Virus record (IMG/VR): IMGVR_UViG_3300025030_000131
Coordinates: 1 to 55,529 of that record
From: a virus
Reading direction: 5' to 3' (one strand)
Length of the DNA: 55,529 nt
Below, one piece after another: positions 2,757 through 15,762 of the stretch. Each line of letters begins with the position of its first letter. The first letter of the stretch is position 1. The notes below the pieces were generated by a model, which saw only the letters and a list, made by a program, of their open reading frames with translations, was not told where the DNA came from and searched no databases. The translations under genes and the position numbers were made by a program.

Positions 2757-2933
2757 TTTTGCAACAGACGGTTTTCGCATCCATCTGGACTCCTCCCTCA
2801 CCCGCCGCACGATCAAGGATGTGGAGGCCCCGGACTTCTCCGCCCCCTATGCACTTCCCTCCCCCATCCCAATATTGGGCAGGTTAGGGCTTTGGAACCC
2901 GCCACCGAATATGCAACTTCCATCATCTATTAC

Positions 2934-2961
2934 AAACAGGCTGAAATAAGCCTGTTTTTTA
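2934..2961 (+). terminator. Rho-independent terminator
   Basis: AAACAGGC (2934-2941) pairs with GCCTGTTT (2950-2957) around an 8-base loop and the run of six T residues (2955-2960) follows. It would stop transcription leaving the cassette block. Confidence 0.8.
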
Positions 2962-2974
2962 TTGGGGGAATTTA

Positions 2975-2990
2975 TAGAATATATGTTCTA
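2975..2990 (+). promoter_or_regulatory. Palindromic operator-like site
   Basis: TAGAATATATGTTCTA is a near-perfect palindrome (TAGAA/TTCTA arms, one central mismatch pair), 30 bases upstream of the -35 box at 3021. A candidate repressor site; nothing in the window says which protein binds it. Confidence 0.45.
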
Positions 2991-3020
2991 AATATGATAT
3001 AAGTTGTCCATACAATGGGC

Positions 3021-3048
3021 TTGACTACGCTTCACAACCTGTTATAAT
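3021..3048 (+). promoter_or_regulatory. Sigma70-type promoter
   Basis: TTGACT (3021-3026), 16-base spacer, TATAAT (3043-3048). Transcription would start near 3055 and read 3120-3814. Confidence 0.8.
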
Positions 3049-3119
3049 TGGGGTTGTAAAGCGTTGGCGTGTAGTTTGACAATAACCCCCAAACATGGAA
3101 AAGAAAAGAGGCTATAAAC

Positions 3120-3560
3120 ATGAAAACAAATGAAATTCCCGCAATTAGAACCGAATCACTTCTCGCTGATGAGTTGAGTGAAAAAAGAATCGGCTACAAA
3201 GTGGTCTGCTCAAAAAATACGAAGTCATTCTCTCCTGCCACGTCATCTGCGCTACAACGTATCACATACCGGCTCCATCGAGAGACCCGTCAGATACGCG
3301 GCGAGTTTGGCCCGTTGGCAGTGTTTGACACGCTCGAACACGCAGAGAGGTTTTTCGTGGATTATGGCGACCACATTCTGCGGGTGGAATATGAACCGTC
3401 GGATGAGGACGAGTTGTGGAAGAAAAACCCGCCATCTTTTGTAAAATCATGGCGCGGCTATTCGGCGCAATCAAATGGCACAAGTGAAAAATCCCTGGAC
3501 ACCTGCCCAGCCGGGACAATACTGGCGTCCTCGGTCTATGTGTTGGAGATCATAAAATGA
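3120..3560 (+). CDS. Hypothetical protein
   Basis: A 146-residue protein following the promoter at 3021; AAAAGAGG lies about 9 bases before the ATG. A central GEFGPLAVFDTLEHAERFF block, then HILRVEYEPSD, and a C-terminal Val/Leu-rich strand suggest a small alpha/beta fold of the sort seen in many phage early proteins with no assigned function. Its TGA overlaps the next ATG (ATGA at 3557-3560), so the two are translationally coupled. Confidence 0.7.
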   Translation: MKTNEIPAIRTESLLADELSEKRIGYKVVCSKNTKSFSPATSSALQRITYRLHRETRQIRGEFGPLAVFDTLEHAERFFVDYGDHILRVEYEPSDEDELWKKNPPSFVKSWRGYSAQSNGTSEKSLDTCPAGTILASSVYVLEIIK

Positions 3561-3814
3561 CAATGATTCCACAAATCATAGAACTGTATCTGCGGCTGGA
3601 CGGCGAATTCGCCTCTCATAAATATGAGGAAAGTTATGAGGCGAGCTGGACATGGAAACCCGAGGACATTGCATACCTCGAACAGATCAAAACAATTGAC
3701 GACCTGGGCAACTATGATCACAACAATGATTACCTCTGTGCGCTCGCTTATGACTGTGCCCTTGCGATGGGACTATCAAAGTGGGATGCCATGAGCGTCG
3801 CTAACGATCACTAA
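3557..3814 (+). CDS. Hypothetical protein
   Basis: An 85-residue acidic protein whose ATG overlaps the previous stop by 4 bases. Mostly helical by composition (PEDIAYLEQIKTIDDLG, YLCALAYDCALAMGLSKWDAM). No domain recognised. Last intact gene before the duplicated gene at 4012. Confidence 0.65.
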   Translation: MTMIPQIIELYLRLDGEFASHKYEESYEASWTWKPEDIAYLEQIKTIDDLGNYDHNNDYLCALAYDCALAMGLSKWDAMSVANDH

Positions 3815-3891
3815 TACATGGAACAGAAAAGAGGAAATAGACAATGCCTAGAACAAGACAATTAGTTCCCTGAAAGAGGTCAAAAAAAAGG

Positions 3892-4008
3892 ATGCCCGAA
3901 GGTGCTAATTCCATCATGGACATTGGGGCTGGGGATGGCAGGGTGCTGAAATGGCTGGCGGAAAAAAGCAGGGATGTAAAACCGTGTATAATCAACCCAG
4001 GAGCATAA
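3892..4008 (+). pseudogene. N-terminal fragment of a SAM-dependent methyltransferase, cut by the duplicated block
   Basis: ATG 3892 opens a 38-codon frame whose start, MPEGANSIMDIGAGDGRVLKWLAEK, reads like the first strand and glycine-rich motif I (DIGAGDG) of a class I methyltransferase that binds S-adenosylmethionine. About residue 27 the sequence enters the direct repeat (from 3970) and stops at 4006-4008. The most likely history is that insertion or recombination of the repeat replaced the rest of the gene. The fragment cannot be a functional enzyme. Confidence 0.6.
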
Positions 4009-4316
4009 CCCATGAAAAAAACGAAACCAACCACCCCCAACCCATCCACCCTGAAATCGCGCCGGCGCTATCTGCTTCTGGATGCCGTGGCACGCCGGGT
4101 CCTGAATGACTCTAACGTATCGTGGTCGTCCGTGGGATCGGAGTTTACCGGCAGACTCCTCCCCGCCAAAGGCGACACCCTATCCACCATCACGGAGAAG
4201 GAAGTTCGCTCCGTGATCCGCACGGTGCTGAATGACTTGATACGGAAATTGGACTCCCGCCCCATTGGGAGTTCGGACTCCACCAGTGATTTGAAGGCCA
4301 TTCTGGAAACAGTGCC
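3970..4316 (+). repeat. Direct repeat, complete copy
   Basis: 3970-4069 equals 55430-55529 base for base, and 4204-4316 equals 1-113. The repeat carries a promoter-like sequence (TAAAACCGTGTATAAT from 3977), a ribosome-binding site and nearly the whole gene 4012-4335. The divergence beyond 4316 lies in the last codons of the gene. Confidence 0.9.
3977..3992 (+). promoter_or_regulatory. Promoter-like element shared by three loci
   Basis: TAAAACCGTGTATAAT occurs here, at 55437-55452 within the repeat, and, as CTAAAACCGTGTATAAT, at 20152-20168. The TATAAT is a consensus -10. In the right-hand copy TCGACA lies 17 bases upstream of it; here the -35 region is poor (AAAGCA). Confidence 0.55.
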
Positions 4317-8857: not shown

Positions 8858-8917
8858 TGGATGCAGTGACAGAAATGTCACTACCAACCGGGATCCTATA
8901 TCTCGGTTGGTTTTTTT
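8858..8917 (+). ncRNA. Candidate small RNA (two hairpins)
   Basis: From the expected start, AGTGACA (8865-8871), GAAA tetraloop and TGTCACT (8876-8882) form a perfect hairpin, immediately followed by a terminator hairpin. No start codon with a ribosome-binding site lies inside. It may be a phage regulatory RNA or an attenuated leader of the helicase gene. Confidence 0.5.
8884..8917 (+). terminator. Rho-independent terminator
   Basis: CCAACCG (8884-8890) pairs with CGGTTGG (8904-8910), followed by seven T residues (8911-8917). Confidence 0.85.
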
Positions 8918-8918
8918 A

Positions 8919-8948
8919 TTGACACAATCAGCCAAGTCGTGATAGGAT
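8919..8948 (+). promoter_or_regulatory. Promoter of the replication genes
   Basis: TTGACA (8919-8924), 18-base spacer, TAGGAT (8943-8948), directly after the terminator and about 45 bases before the helicase start (8994, with TAGGAG upstream). Confidence 0.6.
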
Positions 8949-8993
8949 AGCAGGCATAATACATATAGCATCCACTATATAGGAGATTAGATC

Positions 8994-11984
8994 ATGATAG
9001 CAATACCCGACCTGCAATGGTCAACAGCCAAAGAAATTCAAACAAAAAACGGTCCGCGCATGTTGCGAACCGCTGAGCCTACCCCCGATTTTTGGGAGTC
9101 CTGGCGCTCAAACAAAGATGCTCTTAAATTATTGGGAGTATCCTGTTCGCGCGATGAACGCTCCGGCGAATGGAAAATATGCTGGTGGCAGGAACTTACC
9201 GCCGAAACAAAACAGGAGCGCGCCGCATCGGTAGAGGCGTCGCGTGCCGTAAACGCAGAAATCGAACTTCCAAAACCGGATGGGCTGGATTACATGCCTT
9301 TCCAACGTGCCGGTATACGATATGCGCTTGATCGCCAAAATGTTCTAATTGCCGACGAAATGGGACTCGGTAAAACCGTAGAGACAATCGGCATTATCAA
9401 TGCAGACCCAGCCATTGCCAGCGTAGTTATTGTTTGCCCCAAATCCCTAAAGCTCAACTGGAAAAGGGAACTGGAAAAATGGCTTACCCGCCCGCTTTCG
9501 ATTGGTGTGGTAAACAATTCATGGCTCGCCTCAGATATTGTCATTCTGAACTATGAAGCGACTGGTAAATTTTCTGAACAACTCAAGGCGCATGAGTGGG
9601 ATGCGGTGATTGTAGATGAATGTTTTGTTGGAAATACTCTAATCGAAACCATCGAGGGTTCATGTCAAATAAAAGATTTACACCCTGGTATGCGCGTTGC
9701 GTCCTTCAATTTTTCAAGTAATGCGGTGGAATACAAAAAGATTTTGTATGTGAATCATCGACCAGCACCAAATATTTTATACAAAGTGGCTGGAAATGTA
9801 AGCACAGGCAACCATCCATATTATACAGAGGAGAGCGGTTATGTTAAGGCAAAGGAAATCTGTGGAAAGACTGTGCGAGCGTTGCGAAGTGTTATTTACA
9901 ACCCCGTCAAAGGGGAAGAATACCGCACGTTTTTGTTCGAGGAGATGCGTCAATATGGGAAACTCGTACGGCAAGAAACAAGTGCACAAAACGTACACGG
10001 CGACATGTCAGGAATGCGGGAAGGAGTTTATTCGAAGGGTTTTTGGACTCAGGTTTTGCAGTACGTATTGTTCTGCAATTTGGAGAGTAAGAACCATTAT
10101 CCATCCAGCCAAAAAGAACCCCAGCACTTTTCGAGAAAAAATTTCGAGCGGATTGAAAAGGGCTCATCACGAACGTCCTGGGTGGGCAAAAGAATCATCG
10201 AGGCGGATGAAAGAAAACAATCCAATGCTCAACGCCGACGCGCGCGAAAAAATGAAACAATCACTGACCGGGCGTACGTTTTTGGCGCGGGGAGGAAACG
10301 GAACGATTACGAGCCAACAAAAGAAACTTTTGAGCGCATTAGGATGGAGCGAGGATTGGTTAGAATATCCAATCAAGACGGCTTTAGCAAGCAAGAAATT
10401 CAAATCGCTTCCGAATTGCTACAAGGTGGACATAGCCAGCCCGAAACACAAATTAGCCATAGAGGTAGATGGCAAAACTCACAAACTGAAAAAATGGAAT
10501 TTTCTGGACAAACGAAAGACGGAGATTTTGAATTATTTAGGGTGGACGGTATTGAGATTTACGAACGAGGAAGTGGATCAGAATTTGAGCAGGTGTGCTC
10601 AGACGGTTTTGTCTACAATATCGAAGTAGAGGACAATAACAACTATTTTGCAAATGGAATATTAGTCCATAATTGTCACTACATCAAAAACAGCAAGGCA
10701 CAGCGCTCTAAAAATGTAAAATCAATACCATCACGCAGAAAAATCAGATTGACCGGGACACCAATCGTCAATAGGCCGATTGAACTTTATAACATCATAG
10801 AAGATTTACATAATGGTTTTGGTTCGTTTTTCTCGTTTGCCAAACGCTATGCCGGCGCACACAAAAATGGCTTCGGTTGGGACTTCTCAGGTGCTCAAAA
10901 TCTGGATGAACTGCAAAAACGATTACGAGAAACAATCATGGTGCGCCGTTTGAAAAAGGATGTACTCACAGAACTCCCACGGAAAATCCGTCAGATTGTG
11001 GAGGTGGAAGCCGACACTCCCGCCGCAAAACGGGCGGTAAAATCAGAACAGACTCATGAATCTGCGTCCGAAGAGAGACTGTCAAATCTCCGCGTATCTG
11101 TTGAGTTAAGCAAGGCGGAATCAGAGGATGCGTATAAATCAGCAGTTGCACGCTTGACAGAGGCGTCGCAGGTTGATTTTACTGAAATGGCCCGCTTGCG
11201 CCACGATACTGCTATGGCAAAAGTTCCCGCTGTGATAGCGCATATTACAAACGCGCTGGATGACAATGACAACAAAATTATTGTCGCCATCCACCACCAC
11301 GATGTAGCCGCCGCGCTTATGGATGGCCTGGCAGAGTTCTTTCCGGTTATTTTGACTGGCGAAAATAGCGAACAGGAACGAACTGCATCAGTGGACTCAT
11401 TTCAAAACGATCCGAAGGTGCGCGTGTTTATCGGCTCGATCACTGCCGCAGGAGTTGGGATCACCCTGACAGCTTCCTCGCATGTAGTGTTTGCCGAATT
11501 AGACTGGGTGCCGGGGAATATCTCGCAAATGGAGGATCGCGCTCATCGTATTGGTCAAACCGAAACGGTACTGGTGCAGCATATCGTATTATCCGATAGC
11601 CTGGATGCACGGATGGCAAATGCGATTATTTCAAAACAAAATGTGATAGACAATGCGCTTGATATTAACCATCCCGAACGCTCCGCGCCGGTGTATGAGC
11701 CAAAAAATAAAAGCGCATCTCATGGAGCGTCAGTATCCGAAATAGAGAAAATTGCAGAGACATTATCAACCGAACAATGTGCAATGATACATAATCAATT
11801 GCGTTATCTCGCCGGCATGGATGCCGACCACGCCAGCAGCTTGAATGGAATTGGATTCAACAAAATAGATACGCAGATTGGTCATGACCTGGCCGGGCGT
11901 GAGTGGCTTACTCCTAAACAGGCTGCGCTTGGAATTAAAATCTGTAAGAAATACCATAAACAGTTGATTGATTGGAAGGCATAA
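8994..11984 (+). CDS. SNF2-family DEAD-like helicase/ATPase containing an intein
   Basis: 996-residue precursor. After removal of the intein (residues 210-560) the extein is 645 residues. Motifs: Walker A DEMGLGKT (about residues 120-127), motif II VIVDE joined after splicing to CHYIKN (a DECH box), motif III LTGTP (about 586), and in the second RecA-like domain GVGITLTAS and EDRAHRIGQ (about 847-855), all typical of SNF2/Rad54-type ATPases that translocate on duplex DNA. Phage members are usually linked to replication or recombination. The C-terminal 100 residues are an accessory helical domain. It is followed at once by initiator and loader-like genes, so a replication role is likely. Confidence 0.9.
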   Translation: MIAIPDLQWSTAKEIQTKNGPRMLRTAEPTPDFWESWRSNKDALKLLGVSCSRDERSGEWKICWWQELTAETKQERAASVEASRAVNAEIELPKPDGLDYMPFQRAGIRYALDRQNVLIADEMGLGKTVETIGIINADPAIASVVIVCPKSLKLNWKRELEKWLTRPLSIGVVNNSWLASDIVILNYEATGKFSEQLKAHEWDAVIVDECFVGNTLIETIEGSCQIKDLHPGMRVASFNFSSNAVEYKKILYVNHRPAPNILYKVAGNVSTGNHPYYTEESGYVKAKEICGKTVRALRSVIYNPVKGEEYRTFLFEEMRQYGKLVRQETSAQNVHGDMSGMREGVYSKGFWTQVLQYVLFCNLESKNHYPSSQKEPQHFSRKNFERIEKGSSRTSWVGKRIIEADERKQSNAQRRRARKNETITDRAYVFGAGRKRNDYEPTKETFERIRMERGLVRISNQDGFSKQEIQIASELLQGGHSQPETQISHRGRWQNSQTEKMEFSGQTKDGDFELFRVDGIEIYERGSGSEFEQVCSDGFVYNIEVEDNNNYFANGILVHNCHYIKNSKAQRSKNVKSIPSRRKIRLTGTPIVNRPIELYNIIEDLHNGFGSFFSFAKRYAGAHKNGFGWDFSGAQNLDELQKRLRETIMVRRLKKDVLTELPRKIRQIVEVEADTPAAKRAVKSEQTHESASEERLSNLRVSVELSKAESEDAYKSAVARLTEASQVDFTEMARLRHDTAMAKVPAVIAHITNALDDNDNKIIVAIHHHDVAAALMDGLAEFFPVILTGENSEQERTASVDSFQNDPKVRVFIGSITAAGVGITLTASSHVVFAELDWVPGNISQMEDRAHRIGQTETVLVQHIVLSDSLDARMANAIISKQNVIDNALDINHPERSAPVYEPKNKSASHGASVSEIEKIAETLSTEQCAMIHNQLRYLAGMDADHASSLNGIGFNKIDTQIGHDLAGREWLTPKQAALGIKICKKYHKQLIDWKA
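9621..10673 (+). other. Intein in helicase motif II
   Basis: 351 residues, in frame with the helicase, from Cys210 to Asn560. N-terminal block A CFVGNTLIET, block B GNVSTGNHPYYTE (TxxH-like), C-terminal blocks F and G VYNIEVEDNNNYF and NGILVHN followed by Cys, the nucleophile of the C-extein. The host protein is cut within the DECH box, a typical intein site because it is highly conserved. Between the splicing blocks (residues about 285-530) the in-frame sequence is Arg/Ser/Gln-rich and does not look like a folded homing endonuclease; the endonuclease is encoded in another frame of the same DNA. Confidence 0.92.
9841..10629 (+). CDS. Out-of-frame homing endonuclease (VSR/DUF559-like) nested in the intein
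   Basis: 262 residues in the +1 frame relative to the helicase, wholly within the intein, with its own GAGGAG seven bases before the ATG. Two zinc-finger-like CxxC...CxxxC units (CERCEVLF with FCSRRC; CQECGKEF with FCSTYC), then a NUMOD3-like stretch (GLKRAHHERPGWAKESSRRM, KMKQSLTGR), then a nuclease core with LAIEVDGKTHKLKKW and LNYLGWTVLRFTNEEV, resembling VSR/EDxHD-type nucleases. It would cut intein-free alleles and so spread the intein. Both frames stay open for 789 bases. Confidence 0.85.
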   Translation: MLRQRKSVERLCERCEVLFTTPSKGKNTARFCSRRCVNMGNSYGKKQVHKTYTATCQECGKEFIRRVFGLRFCSTYCSAIWRVRTIIHPAKKNPSTFREKISSGLKRAHHERPGWAKESSRRMKENNPMLNADAREKMKQSLTGRTFLARGGNGTITSQQKKLLSALGWSEDWLEYPIKTALASKKFKSLPNCYKVDIASPKHKLAIEVDGKTHKLKKWNFLDKRKTEILNYLGWTVLRFTNEEVDQNLSRCAQTVLSTISK

Positions 11985-11986
11985 AG

Positions 11987-12790
11987 ATGAAACTTTCAGA
12001 ATTTCTGTCAGATGTTGGTCGCCCTGTCGCGTTTTATCCAACCCTGGTGAAAGCCTTTGGGGATCGAAATGAGGCGATATTTATTTGCCAAATGGCCTAT
12101 TGGCGCGGCAAAGGTGAAAGTGAGGATGGCTGGATTTATAAAACTTCCGACGAAATAGAGGCCGAAACATCACTAACATATAAAGAACAAACCAACGTCA
12201 GAAACGGGCTGAAAAAGAAAGAATTGCTCAAGGAAAAACACGTCCGCACCGAGCATAAAATGTATTTTCGGGTCGATTGGGATAAGGTAAATTCTTTGTG
12301 GGGGCAGTTTACCGATGGTAAGGTGGTGCATATTACCAAAAGTAAACTGCCACCCTCCCCAAAGAAGGGTGGCAGTTTACCCGTTGGCATTTCGTTAAAT
12401 AGTAATACAGAGAATACAGCAGAGAATACAACAAAGATTAAAACCAGCGTGGAGAAACCCGCAAAACCACCGACACCGCCCGAAGTAAAGCTATTCCGGG
12501 AGGCGACTGGCCGATACCCCGCAAGATCATCATTTACAACCGTTGTAGATGCCATCCAAAAAATAGGAAAACGTCTGGGGCGGGATGTGATTTGTGATGA
12601 TCTCAAACCATTTTTGACAGATTGGACTGACCGTGGGTGGAATCCAATGAATCTAGCATGGTTGAAGGAATGGGCAGTAATTGGCTCGATTCCGACAAAT
12701 GGAAAGAAACCTGCTTTCCAACTGCGGGAGTCCGCGAACCGCGCCGCCCTTGCTACAATGAAATTTGACGATGAAGGGAATCTAATCTAA
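11987..12790 (+). CDS. DnaD-like replication initiation protein
   Basis: 267 residues from ATG 11987, three bases after the helicase stop. The N-terminal 110 residues form a winged-helix-like domain (FYPTLVKAFGDRNEAIFICQMAYWRG, TSDEIEAETSLTYKEQTNVR, KYFRVDWDKV-type wing), as in phage replication initiators; a low-complexity Ser/Thr/Lys linker (130-160) leads to a C-terminal domain with LFREATGRYPARSSF. Such proteins bind the origin and recruit the host replisome, which fits the absence of a phage DNA polymerase. Stop and next start share one base (TAATG). Confidence 0.65.
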   Translation: MKLSEFLSDVGRPVAFYPTLVKAFGDRNEAIFICQMAYWRGKGESEDGWIYKTSDEIEAETSLTYKEQTNVRNGLKKKELLKEKHVRTEHKMYFRVDWDKVNSLWGQFTDGKVVHITKSKLPPSPKKGGSLPVGISLNSNTENTAENTTKIKTSVEKPAKPPTPPEVKLFREATGRYPARSSFTTVVDAIQKIGKRLGRDVICDDLKPFLTDWTDRGWNPMNLAWLKEWAVIGSIPTNGKKPAFQLRESANRAALATMKFDDEGNLI

Positions 12791-14433: not shown

Positions 14434-15762
14434 ATGAAACAAATAACATCGTTGTCAACCGAGCGAGTTGCGAGGTTCCGGGAGTTTGTAGATAAGTGGA
14501 CACACCTCGGATTGTCCACCAAGCCGGCTAACCACCCAGGGGCTGAGGACGCTCTGCGAAGGGCGTATCAAGTGGCCGGCCTGACACCTCCAAAATTTAT
14601 TGTGTGGATGAAAAGCCCGCGCGACGCAGTCTTGGCATGGGCTTTGATCTTGTCCTGGATAGTTGACGACCAAGTGAGCGACCAAGTGAGCGCCCAAGTG
14701 ATCGACCAAGTGCGCGCCCAAGTGATCGACCAAGTGCGCGACCAAGTGAGCGACCAAGTGAGCGACCAAGTGCGCGCCCAAGTGAGCGCCCAAGTGAGCG
14801 CCCAAGTGCGCGACCAAGTGCGCGCCCAAGTGCGCGCCCAAGTGATCGACCAAGTGCGCGACCAAGTGAGCGACCAAGTGAGCGACCAAGTGCGCGCCCA
14901 AGTGAGCGACCAAGTGCGCGCCCAAGTGCGCGACCAAGTGATCGACCAAGTGATCGACCAAGTGATCGACCAAGTGATCGACCAAGTGATCGACCAAGTG
15001 AGCGACCAAGTGTTCGCCCAAGTGAGCGACCAAGTGATCGACCAAGTGATCGACCAAGTGATCGACCAAGTGATCGACCAAGTGCGCGCCCAAGTGAGCG
15101 ACTATATCCAACAACGCTGGTGGTGGACCGGCTGGGGCAATCAGGAATGGTGGTTGTCCTGGATCGATTACTTCGGCTCCGCCGTTGGAATATCGGCAGA
15201 AAAAATCCATCCATTACTTGATCTCGCAGAACACGGCCATTGGTATTGGCCGATGCAGGGTATCGCCGTGATGTGTGAAAGACCTTTGGCTATTCGGCGC
15301 GACGGACGCGGAAGATTGCATTGCGACGATGGACCGGCAGTGGAGTACGAAGGCTGGACGATCTATGCCGTGGATGGAATGGGGATCCCTGATTGGATCG
15401 TGGAGTGTAAGGACCAGATCACACCTGAACGCATCAACGCCGAAAAAAACGCGGAAATTCGCAGGATCATGATGCGCTTCTATGGTTGGGATCGCTGGCT
15501 GGAAAACGTCAAGGCGAAACTTATTGACCGGGATCCAGACCCCACCATTGGGGAGTTGTGGTCATTCAAAGACGTGGATGGTGTGACCGTGAAAATACTT
15601 AAGGTTCGTAATGGCACAAGGGAAGTAGACGGATACCGCAGCTTTTCTTTGCGCGTGGACTCGGATTGCGAGACTGCACTCAAGGCAAACAGGTGGACAT
15701 ATCCTTCCTGTCGTCAAATGTCGGAGCAAGATTACCGTATTCTAAATTCTGCAAGATCATAA
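14434..15762 (+). CDS. DUF6745-type protein with long DQV tetrapeptide repeat
   Basis: 442 residues. The N-terminus (ERVARFREFVDKWTHLGLST, GAEDALRRAYQVAGLTPP, SPRDAVLAWALI), the middle (VMCERPLAIRRDGRGRLHCD, DGPAVEYEGW) and the C-terminus (NAEIRRIMMRFYG, then DGYRSFSLRVDS) fit the DUF6745 family. Residues 79-222 are 36 copies of a four-residue unit (D/A)QV(S/R/I/F). Family members often carry such a repeat of varying length at this point. Biochemical role unknown to me. It is followed by the small gene at 15777, a pairing I have seen with this family. Preceded by AAAGGAG about 9 bases before ATG. Confidence 0.75.
   Translation: MKQITSLSTERVARFREFVDKWTHLGLSTKPANHPGAEDALRRAYQVAGLTPPKFIVWMKSPRDAVLAWALILSWIVDDQVSDQVSAQVIDQVRAQVIDQVRDQVSDQVSDQVRAQVSAQVSAQVRDQVRAQVRAQVIDQVRDQVSDQVSDQVRAQVSDQVRAQVRDQVIDQVIDQVIDQVIDQVIDQVSDQVFAQVSDQVIDQVIDQVIDQVIDQVRAQVSDYIQQRWWWTGWGNQEWWLSWIDYFGSAVGISAEKIHPLLDLAEHGHWYWPMQGIAVMCERPLAIRRDGRGRLHCDDGPAVEYEGWTIYAVDGMGIPDWIVECKDQITPERINAEKNAEIRRIMMRFYGWDRWLENVKAKLIDRDPDPTIGELWSFKDVDGVTVKILKVRNGTREVDGYRSFSLRVDSDCETALKANRWTYPSCRQMSEQDYRILNSARS
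14668..15099 (+). repeat. 36 tandem 12-base units within the coding region
   Basis: Units of the form (gac/gcc)CAAGTG(agc/cgc/atc) repeat 36 times without a gap or an off-length unit. Variation is confined to the first and last codon of each unit. Six-unit blocks recur at a 10-unit distance (units 5-10 and 15-20), and runs of identical DQVI units occur (23-27, 31-34), signs of slippage or unequal exchange. Confidence 0.95.

Follow-up and report, generated by a model that had tools for sequence, protein, structure and literature searches.

How can one stretch of DNA encode both an intein and the nuclease that would spread it, when the two are written in different reading frames? The question is raised by a viral DNA of 55,529 nucleotides (IMG/VR record IMGVR_UViG_3300025030_000131, positions 1 to 55,529, hereafter the window), in which the gene of an SNF2-family helicase is split by an insert. 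To our knowledge, the inteins described so far either contain their nuclease as an in-frame domain or have none. We consider it very probable that the insert is a class 1 intein, that it is mobile, and that its homing endonuclease is encoded separately, by a gene lying in the +1 frame of the intein DNA. The host gene and the intein comprise the following features (pLDDT, predicted local distance difference test).

8994–11984, plus strand: host open reading frame (ORF), SNF2-family helicase split by the intein; 996 codons, 0 stops
8994–9620 and 10674–11984, plus strand: N-extein and C-extein of the SNF2 helicase
9621–10673, plus strand: intein of 351 codons, inserted in the Walker B box at GAT GAA ^ TGT CAC (DE^CH)
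9621–9896, plus strand: N-terminal half of the HINT fold, intein residues 1–92 with blocks A and B; pLDDT mostly >90
9897–10520, plus strand: intein-frame filler, residues 93–300, predicted mostly disordered; pLDDT ~40–59, rich in E, R, Q, S and K
10521–10673, plus strand: C-terminal half of the HINT fold, residues 301–351; pLDDT 82–96; the DNA of residues 301–335 also encodes the nuclease C-terminus

A preliminary description of this DNA, made from the letters alone, had claimed an intein with intact splicing blocks in the helicase frame and had proposed profile searches of both frames. These searches matched SNF2-rel_dom (4.2e-31) and Helicase_C (1.9e-11) in the host frame, TIGR01443 at the C-terminal end of the intein (6.9e-9), and DUF559 in the nuclease frame. 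The splicing blocks are indeed intact: the window intein has Cys1 (TGT at 9621), a TGNH block, a C-terminal HN (10668–10673) and a +1 Cys at 10674, as expected of class 1 inteins (Cys1, block B TxxH, C-terminal His-Asn, +1 Cys/Ser/Thr). An AlphaFold2 model of the intein was confident at residues 1–90 and 301–351 and disordered between, and it matched solved inteins of the HINT fold with a Foldseek probability of 1.0. Signatures and model together confirm the insert as a class 1 intein, which is predicted to splice. Group I introns with internal homing endonuclease gene (HEG) ORFs likewise have the HEG translated independently of the host frame; here, however, no Rfam match at the gathering threshold was found in 8900–12100, and the host frame is open throughout and encodes intein motifs, so that a group I or other RNA intron was rejected.

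The second frame of the same DNA contains the following features.

9829–9833, plus strand: Shine-Dalgarno (SD) sequence AGGAG, 7 nt upstream of the nuclease ATG, read from the sequence
9841–10629, plus strand: predicted nested homing endonuclease gene of 262 codons, +1 relative to the host frame; DUF559, 3.8e-14
9874–9948, plus strand: zinc-finger-like cysteines 1 of the nuclease (C12, C15, C32, C36), from cysteine positions
10006–10071, plus strand: zinc-finger-like cysteines 2 (C56, C59, C73, C77), invariant in alignment A1
10339–10626, plus strand: predicted nuclease catalytic region, HEG residues 167–262, from conserved residues in alignment A1

The 262-residue protein and a ribosome-binding site of its own had been described before and are both present. 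So are the zinc fingers, as two Cys4 zinc-finger-like pairs (CxxC...CxxxC) N-terminal to the nuclease domain, the second with weak FCS/L24e-type similarity. The supposed NUMOD3-like repeats did not hold up: the stretch resembles NUMOD3 by eye only, Pfam gave no match to that family at E<=1 for the window and none at E<=0.01 for the relatives, and membership was rejected. The nuclease assignment itself, which by the preliminary description the lack of a nuclease profile match for 9841–10629 would have refuted, was borne out by DUF559 and by a profile of nuclease relatives that matched the solved structures 3hrl (4.3e-12) and I-Bth0305I (3r3p, 3.7e-4). I-Bth0305I was also the best Foldseek match of the AlphaFold2 nuclease model (probability 1.0, E 0.01). 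Invariant in alignment A1 were E175, D197, E208, D210, H214 and D223, which are candidates for the acidic and histidine active-site residues of an EDxHD nuclease, and Y194. A catalytic role of the conserved residues is suggested by membership in this family, and cleavage is predicted from the similarity of the catalytic domain to DUF559 and I-Bth0305I. The window nuclease shares with I-Bth0305I the likeness of the catalytic domain, by profile and by predicted fold, and modular DNA-binding extensions; I-Bth0305I, however, is associated with a group I intron and is no out-of-frame gene within an intein. Classical bifunctional inteins such as PI-SceI also hold their nuclease between N- and C-terminal HINT splicing blocks and home into intein-free alleles, but they carry it as a domain of the intein polypeptide itself, in frame, whereas the window nuclease is a separate gene in the +1 frame.

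Is this arrangement peculiar to the window? Relatives were sought on DNA with back-translated patterns and tblastn, and in isolate records; the DNA-level search was therefore blind to coding in the other frame. It yielded 208 loci with the nuclease domain, 151 of them distinct after collapse at 97%. The nuclease was nested in an open host ORF at offset +1 in 146 of the 151 and at +2 in none; homologous inteins with this frame riddled with stops, which would have refuted the preliminary reading, were thus not what the survey showed. The host frame was stop-free across the nuclease domain in 147/151, and the third frame had stops in all 151 (1952 in total). The exceptions were two in-frame intein fusions (L024, L121) and three loci that were not nested (L010, L110, L213). 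Nesting in the +1 frame is the rule for this nuclease lineage and no isolated curiosity.

The interrupted genes encode helicases of various families or DNA polymerase III clamp loaders; in most of them the intein lies at the Walker B Asp-Glu or immediately behind it. Among isolates, nested-nuclease inteins were found in the Vibrio phages CP-T1, 1.194.O, 1.088.O, K391, 104E43.1 and 159E43-1b, in Pseudomonas phage MR14 and in Corynebacterium phage phi673; in the isolate records examined the host gene alone was annotated, and the nested nuclease was not. Contigs of metagenome-assembled genomes (MAGs) with the element may be phage sequence. Profiles recognised the two intein termini in 25/30 and 24/30 members; boundaries of the relatives were assigned by pattern, and a few are wrong or missing. 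One contig (IMGVR_UViG_3300033144_006696; L008 and L095) carries two different nested-nuclease inteins in two genes.

Out-of-frame endonuclease genes have been described in mycobacteriophage methylases, where the ShiLan domain and the Pacc40 gp60 insertion contain an out-of-frame HNH gene and no detectable splicing domain (Arsenault, Gosselin, Gogarten 2025, PMC11855218). These share with the window the horizontal mobility and the insertion left open in the host frame, and on this precedent the window insert could be a non-splicing insertion that is retained in the protein. We regard this as exceedingly improbable. Both HINT halves are modelled with confidence and match solved inteins; Cys1, block B and the terminal His/Ser-Asn-Cys are kept across different host genes; and since the site lies inside an ATPase Walker B box, an unspliced insert should be harmful. 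The ShiLan and Pacc40 cases also differ in nuclease type and in extent: HNH genes in the few phages described, as against a DUF559/EDxHD nuclease inside a full, intact HINT intein at ~150 distinct loci with a fixed +1 offset.

Could the nuclease frame be open by chance? Synonymous codons were shuffled within each gene at 85 distinct nested loci (20,118 nuclease codons). In the intein frame 924 stops were expected and 0 were observed, and in the third frame 1678 were observed vs 1555 expected, i.e., no avoidance; as the 85 loci were chosen as nested, the zero is partly built in, and the frame-blind count of 147/151 is the cleaner statistic. For the window nuclease ORF alone, 13.9 host-frame stops were expected and 0 observed. 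A T-ending nuclease codon before AA, AG or GA was used in 0/6192 cases, T use elsewhere being 27%. On the shuffle and the frame-blind survey, chance overlap of the two frames was rejected.

A related alternative is that the nuclease is a decaying passenger, its frame open by chance, with the intein alone functional. Homing endonucleases decay after fixation, and K459 carries a 150-residue mini-intein without nuclease at the same site. Against such decay, the ratio of nonsynonymous to synonymous substitutions (dN/dS), which had been suggested as a check in each frame, was 0.03–0.15 in the nuclease frame of close Vibrio phage pairs vs 1.3–2.2 in the overlapping intein-frame filler. Changes concentrated on nuclease third codon positions (in one example 3, 0 and 32 at positions 1, 2 and 3), and the active-site residues are invariant among very diverged loci. 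We therefore hold the passenger explanation to be very unlikely. The low nuclease and high filler values together indicate that the nuclease protein is conserved, whereas most of the filler seems to be under no constraint beyond the absence of stops. The filler had been described as Arg/Ser/Gln-rich, in agreement with its composition.

The preliminary description had also called the intein linker inert, and this stood for about residues 93–300 but not for ~17 codons at the start of the overlap and ~35 at its end, which coincide with modelled HINT strands. The nuclease gene overlaps both confidently modelled HINT parts, at intein residues 74–90 and 301–335. One strand near the C-terminal end is dual-coded.

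10539–10556, plus strand: dual-coded strand, intein residues 307–312 (R-V-x-x-I/V-E) and nuclease residues 233–239 (LGWxVLR)

Near the C-terminal end the synonymous choice of the nuclease is biased toward intein residues. Nuclease Gly234 was GGG in 69/83 loci vs 31% in the background, giving intein Val308; the third base of Leu238 was G in 62/75, giving Glu312; and the choice at Val237 gives Ile/Val311. A wholly inert overlap was rejected for the C-terminal ~35 codons, which are structured in both frames and show this codon bias. The scan of synonymous choice also found a skew at Arg150/Gly151, apart from some others that result from stop avoidance, e.g., TAC at Tyr194 before a codon starting with AA.

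How would the nuclease be translated? Of the 85 loci, 33 had an ATG with an SD of at least 5 nt among the first 180 nt of the nuclease frame, where the other ATGs of the same host ORFs would predict 4.3 (~8-fold enrichment), and several loci have near-perfect internal sites, e.g., AAGGAGGT. This enrichment supports internal initiation as the probable route. Programmed ribosomal frameshifting from the helicase frame to +1 would instead yield a fusion of the N-terminal HINT part and the nuclease, and no free nuclease. It would suit the offset, which is always +1, and the nuclease frame that is open for a short stretch upstream of its ATG. With strong SD and ATG sites so enriched inside the intein, e.g., AAGGAGGTTAAAGATG, and no common slippery site noticed, though no systematic search was made, frameshifting appears unlikely. 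A start derived from the intein Gly-Tyr-Val motif (TAT GTN, which contains ATG) was seen in 12/85 loci only, and was rejected as the general origin of the +1 frame.

For the intein with its separately translated nuclease we propose the following course. Ribosomes in the helicase frame would make a precursor in which HINT folds around a disordered loop of ~208 residues; the intein would then splice itself out and join the two helicase parts at DE^CH. Translation from the internal SD and ATG would yield a free EDxHD nuclease with zinc fingers, similar to I-Bth0305I, which may cleave helicase alleles that have no intein close to their Walker B codons, and repair templated by the intein-bearing copy would spread the intein. 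Direct support comes from the frames, the splicing and nuclease signatures, stop avoidance, nuclease-frame selection, C-terminal dual coding, empty and filled alleles, and an intein far less diverged than the sequence around it. Three points weigh on the other side. Splicing, internal initiation, cleavage and homing are steps that we infer; 52/85 loci have no clear SD ahead of an in-frame ATG, so that some of these may rely on weak sites or another route; and our search, which found no paper on out-of-frame DUF559/EDxHD nucleases in inteins beyond ShiLan, covered open-licence literature only. Within that literature the combination of an out-of-frame nuclease with an intact intein is seemingly undescribed.

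Is the element mobile? Locus L220, a helicase 70% identical, is an empty allele of the window site, with exactly GATGAA followed by TGTCAC. Vibrio phage VchM-138 is without the insert present in CP-T1, although identity over the 300-bp flanks reaches 97% and 93%. The site codon is a native Ala in VchM-138 and the +1 Cys in CP-T1, a difference in keeping with co-conversion of that Cys codon. The synonymous divergence (dS) of 1.194.O from 1.088.O was 0.065 in the intein N-part, 0.22 in the nuclease and 1.68 in the N-extein; low intein values against the flanks are as expected for a recent move between diverged phages, i.e., homing.

In two loci, L010 and L213, a relative of the nuclease stands free, immediately upstream of an intein-free helicase. 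In L010 (~3740–3780) the reading frame of the helicase is lost precisely at the homing site (GATGAACGGACACCAC), with 4 nt, not 3, between GATGAA and CACCAC. This could reflect a scar left by repair, splitting of the gene where the intein would sit, or faulty assembly. In L213 the nuclease relative (2297–2926) overlaps the start of an SNF2-like intein-free helicase gene (2913–4061) that carries an uninvaded VICDE^IHSG site, and the nuclease looks as if it stands beside its likely target gene.

In a tree of the nuclease domain, one in-frame and two free-standing cases were placed among the nested ones; as support was weak and branches were long, a single origin of the nested lineage is suggested only. 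The in-frame form L121 (1897–4575) lies in the intein of a UvrD/PcrA-like helicase in a Methanosuratincola (archaeal) MAG. L110 (2950–3624, Polaromonas glacialis) is a free-standing nuclease without host gene; its former intein frame still has no stop in the nuclease domain, and it looks like a recent escape from an intein.

We think it likely that these loci represent a third and widespread architecture of mobile inteins, in which splicing domain and homing endonuclease are two separately translated proteins, overprinted at a constant +1 offset and sharing the codons of HINT strands. The architecture, which may have arisen once, would occupy Walker B boxes in a wide range of phage ATPases (helicases, clamp loaders), in-frame and free-standing forms being rare. 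Mobility and splicing appear decoupled into two proteins from one DNA stretch. The ~150 loci form a rare large data set on overprinting, in which two folds share codons and constraint is legible in both frames. They suggest that in-frame annotation overlooks a whole class of homing endonucleases, and the family offers natural intein, mini-intein and empty alleles for experiments.

Elsewhere in the window, at 14434–15762, an ORF of 442 codons contains long runs of QVxDQV/QVRAQV repeats, and the opposite strand is open there too.
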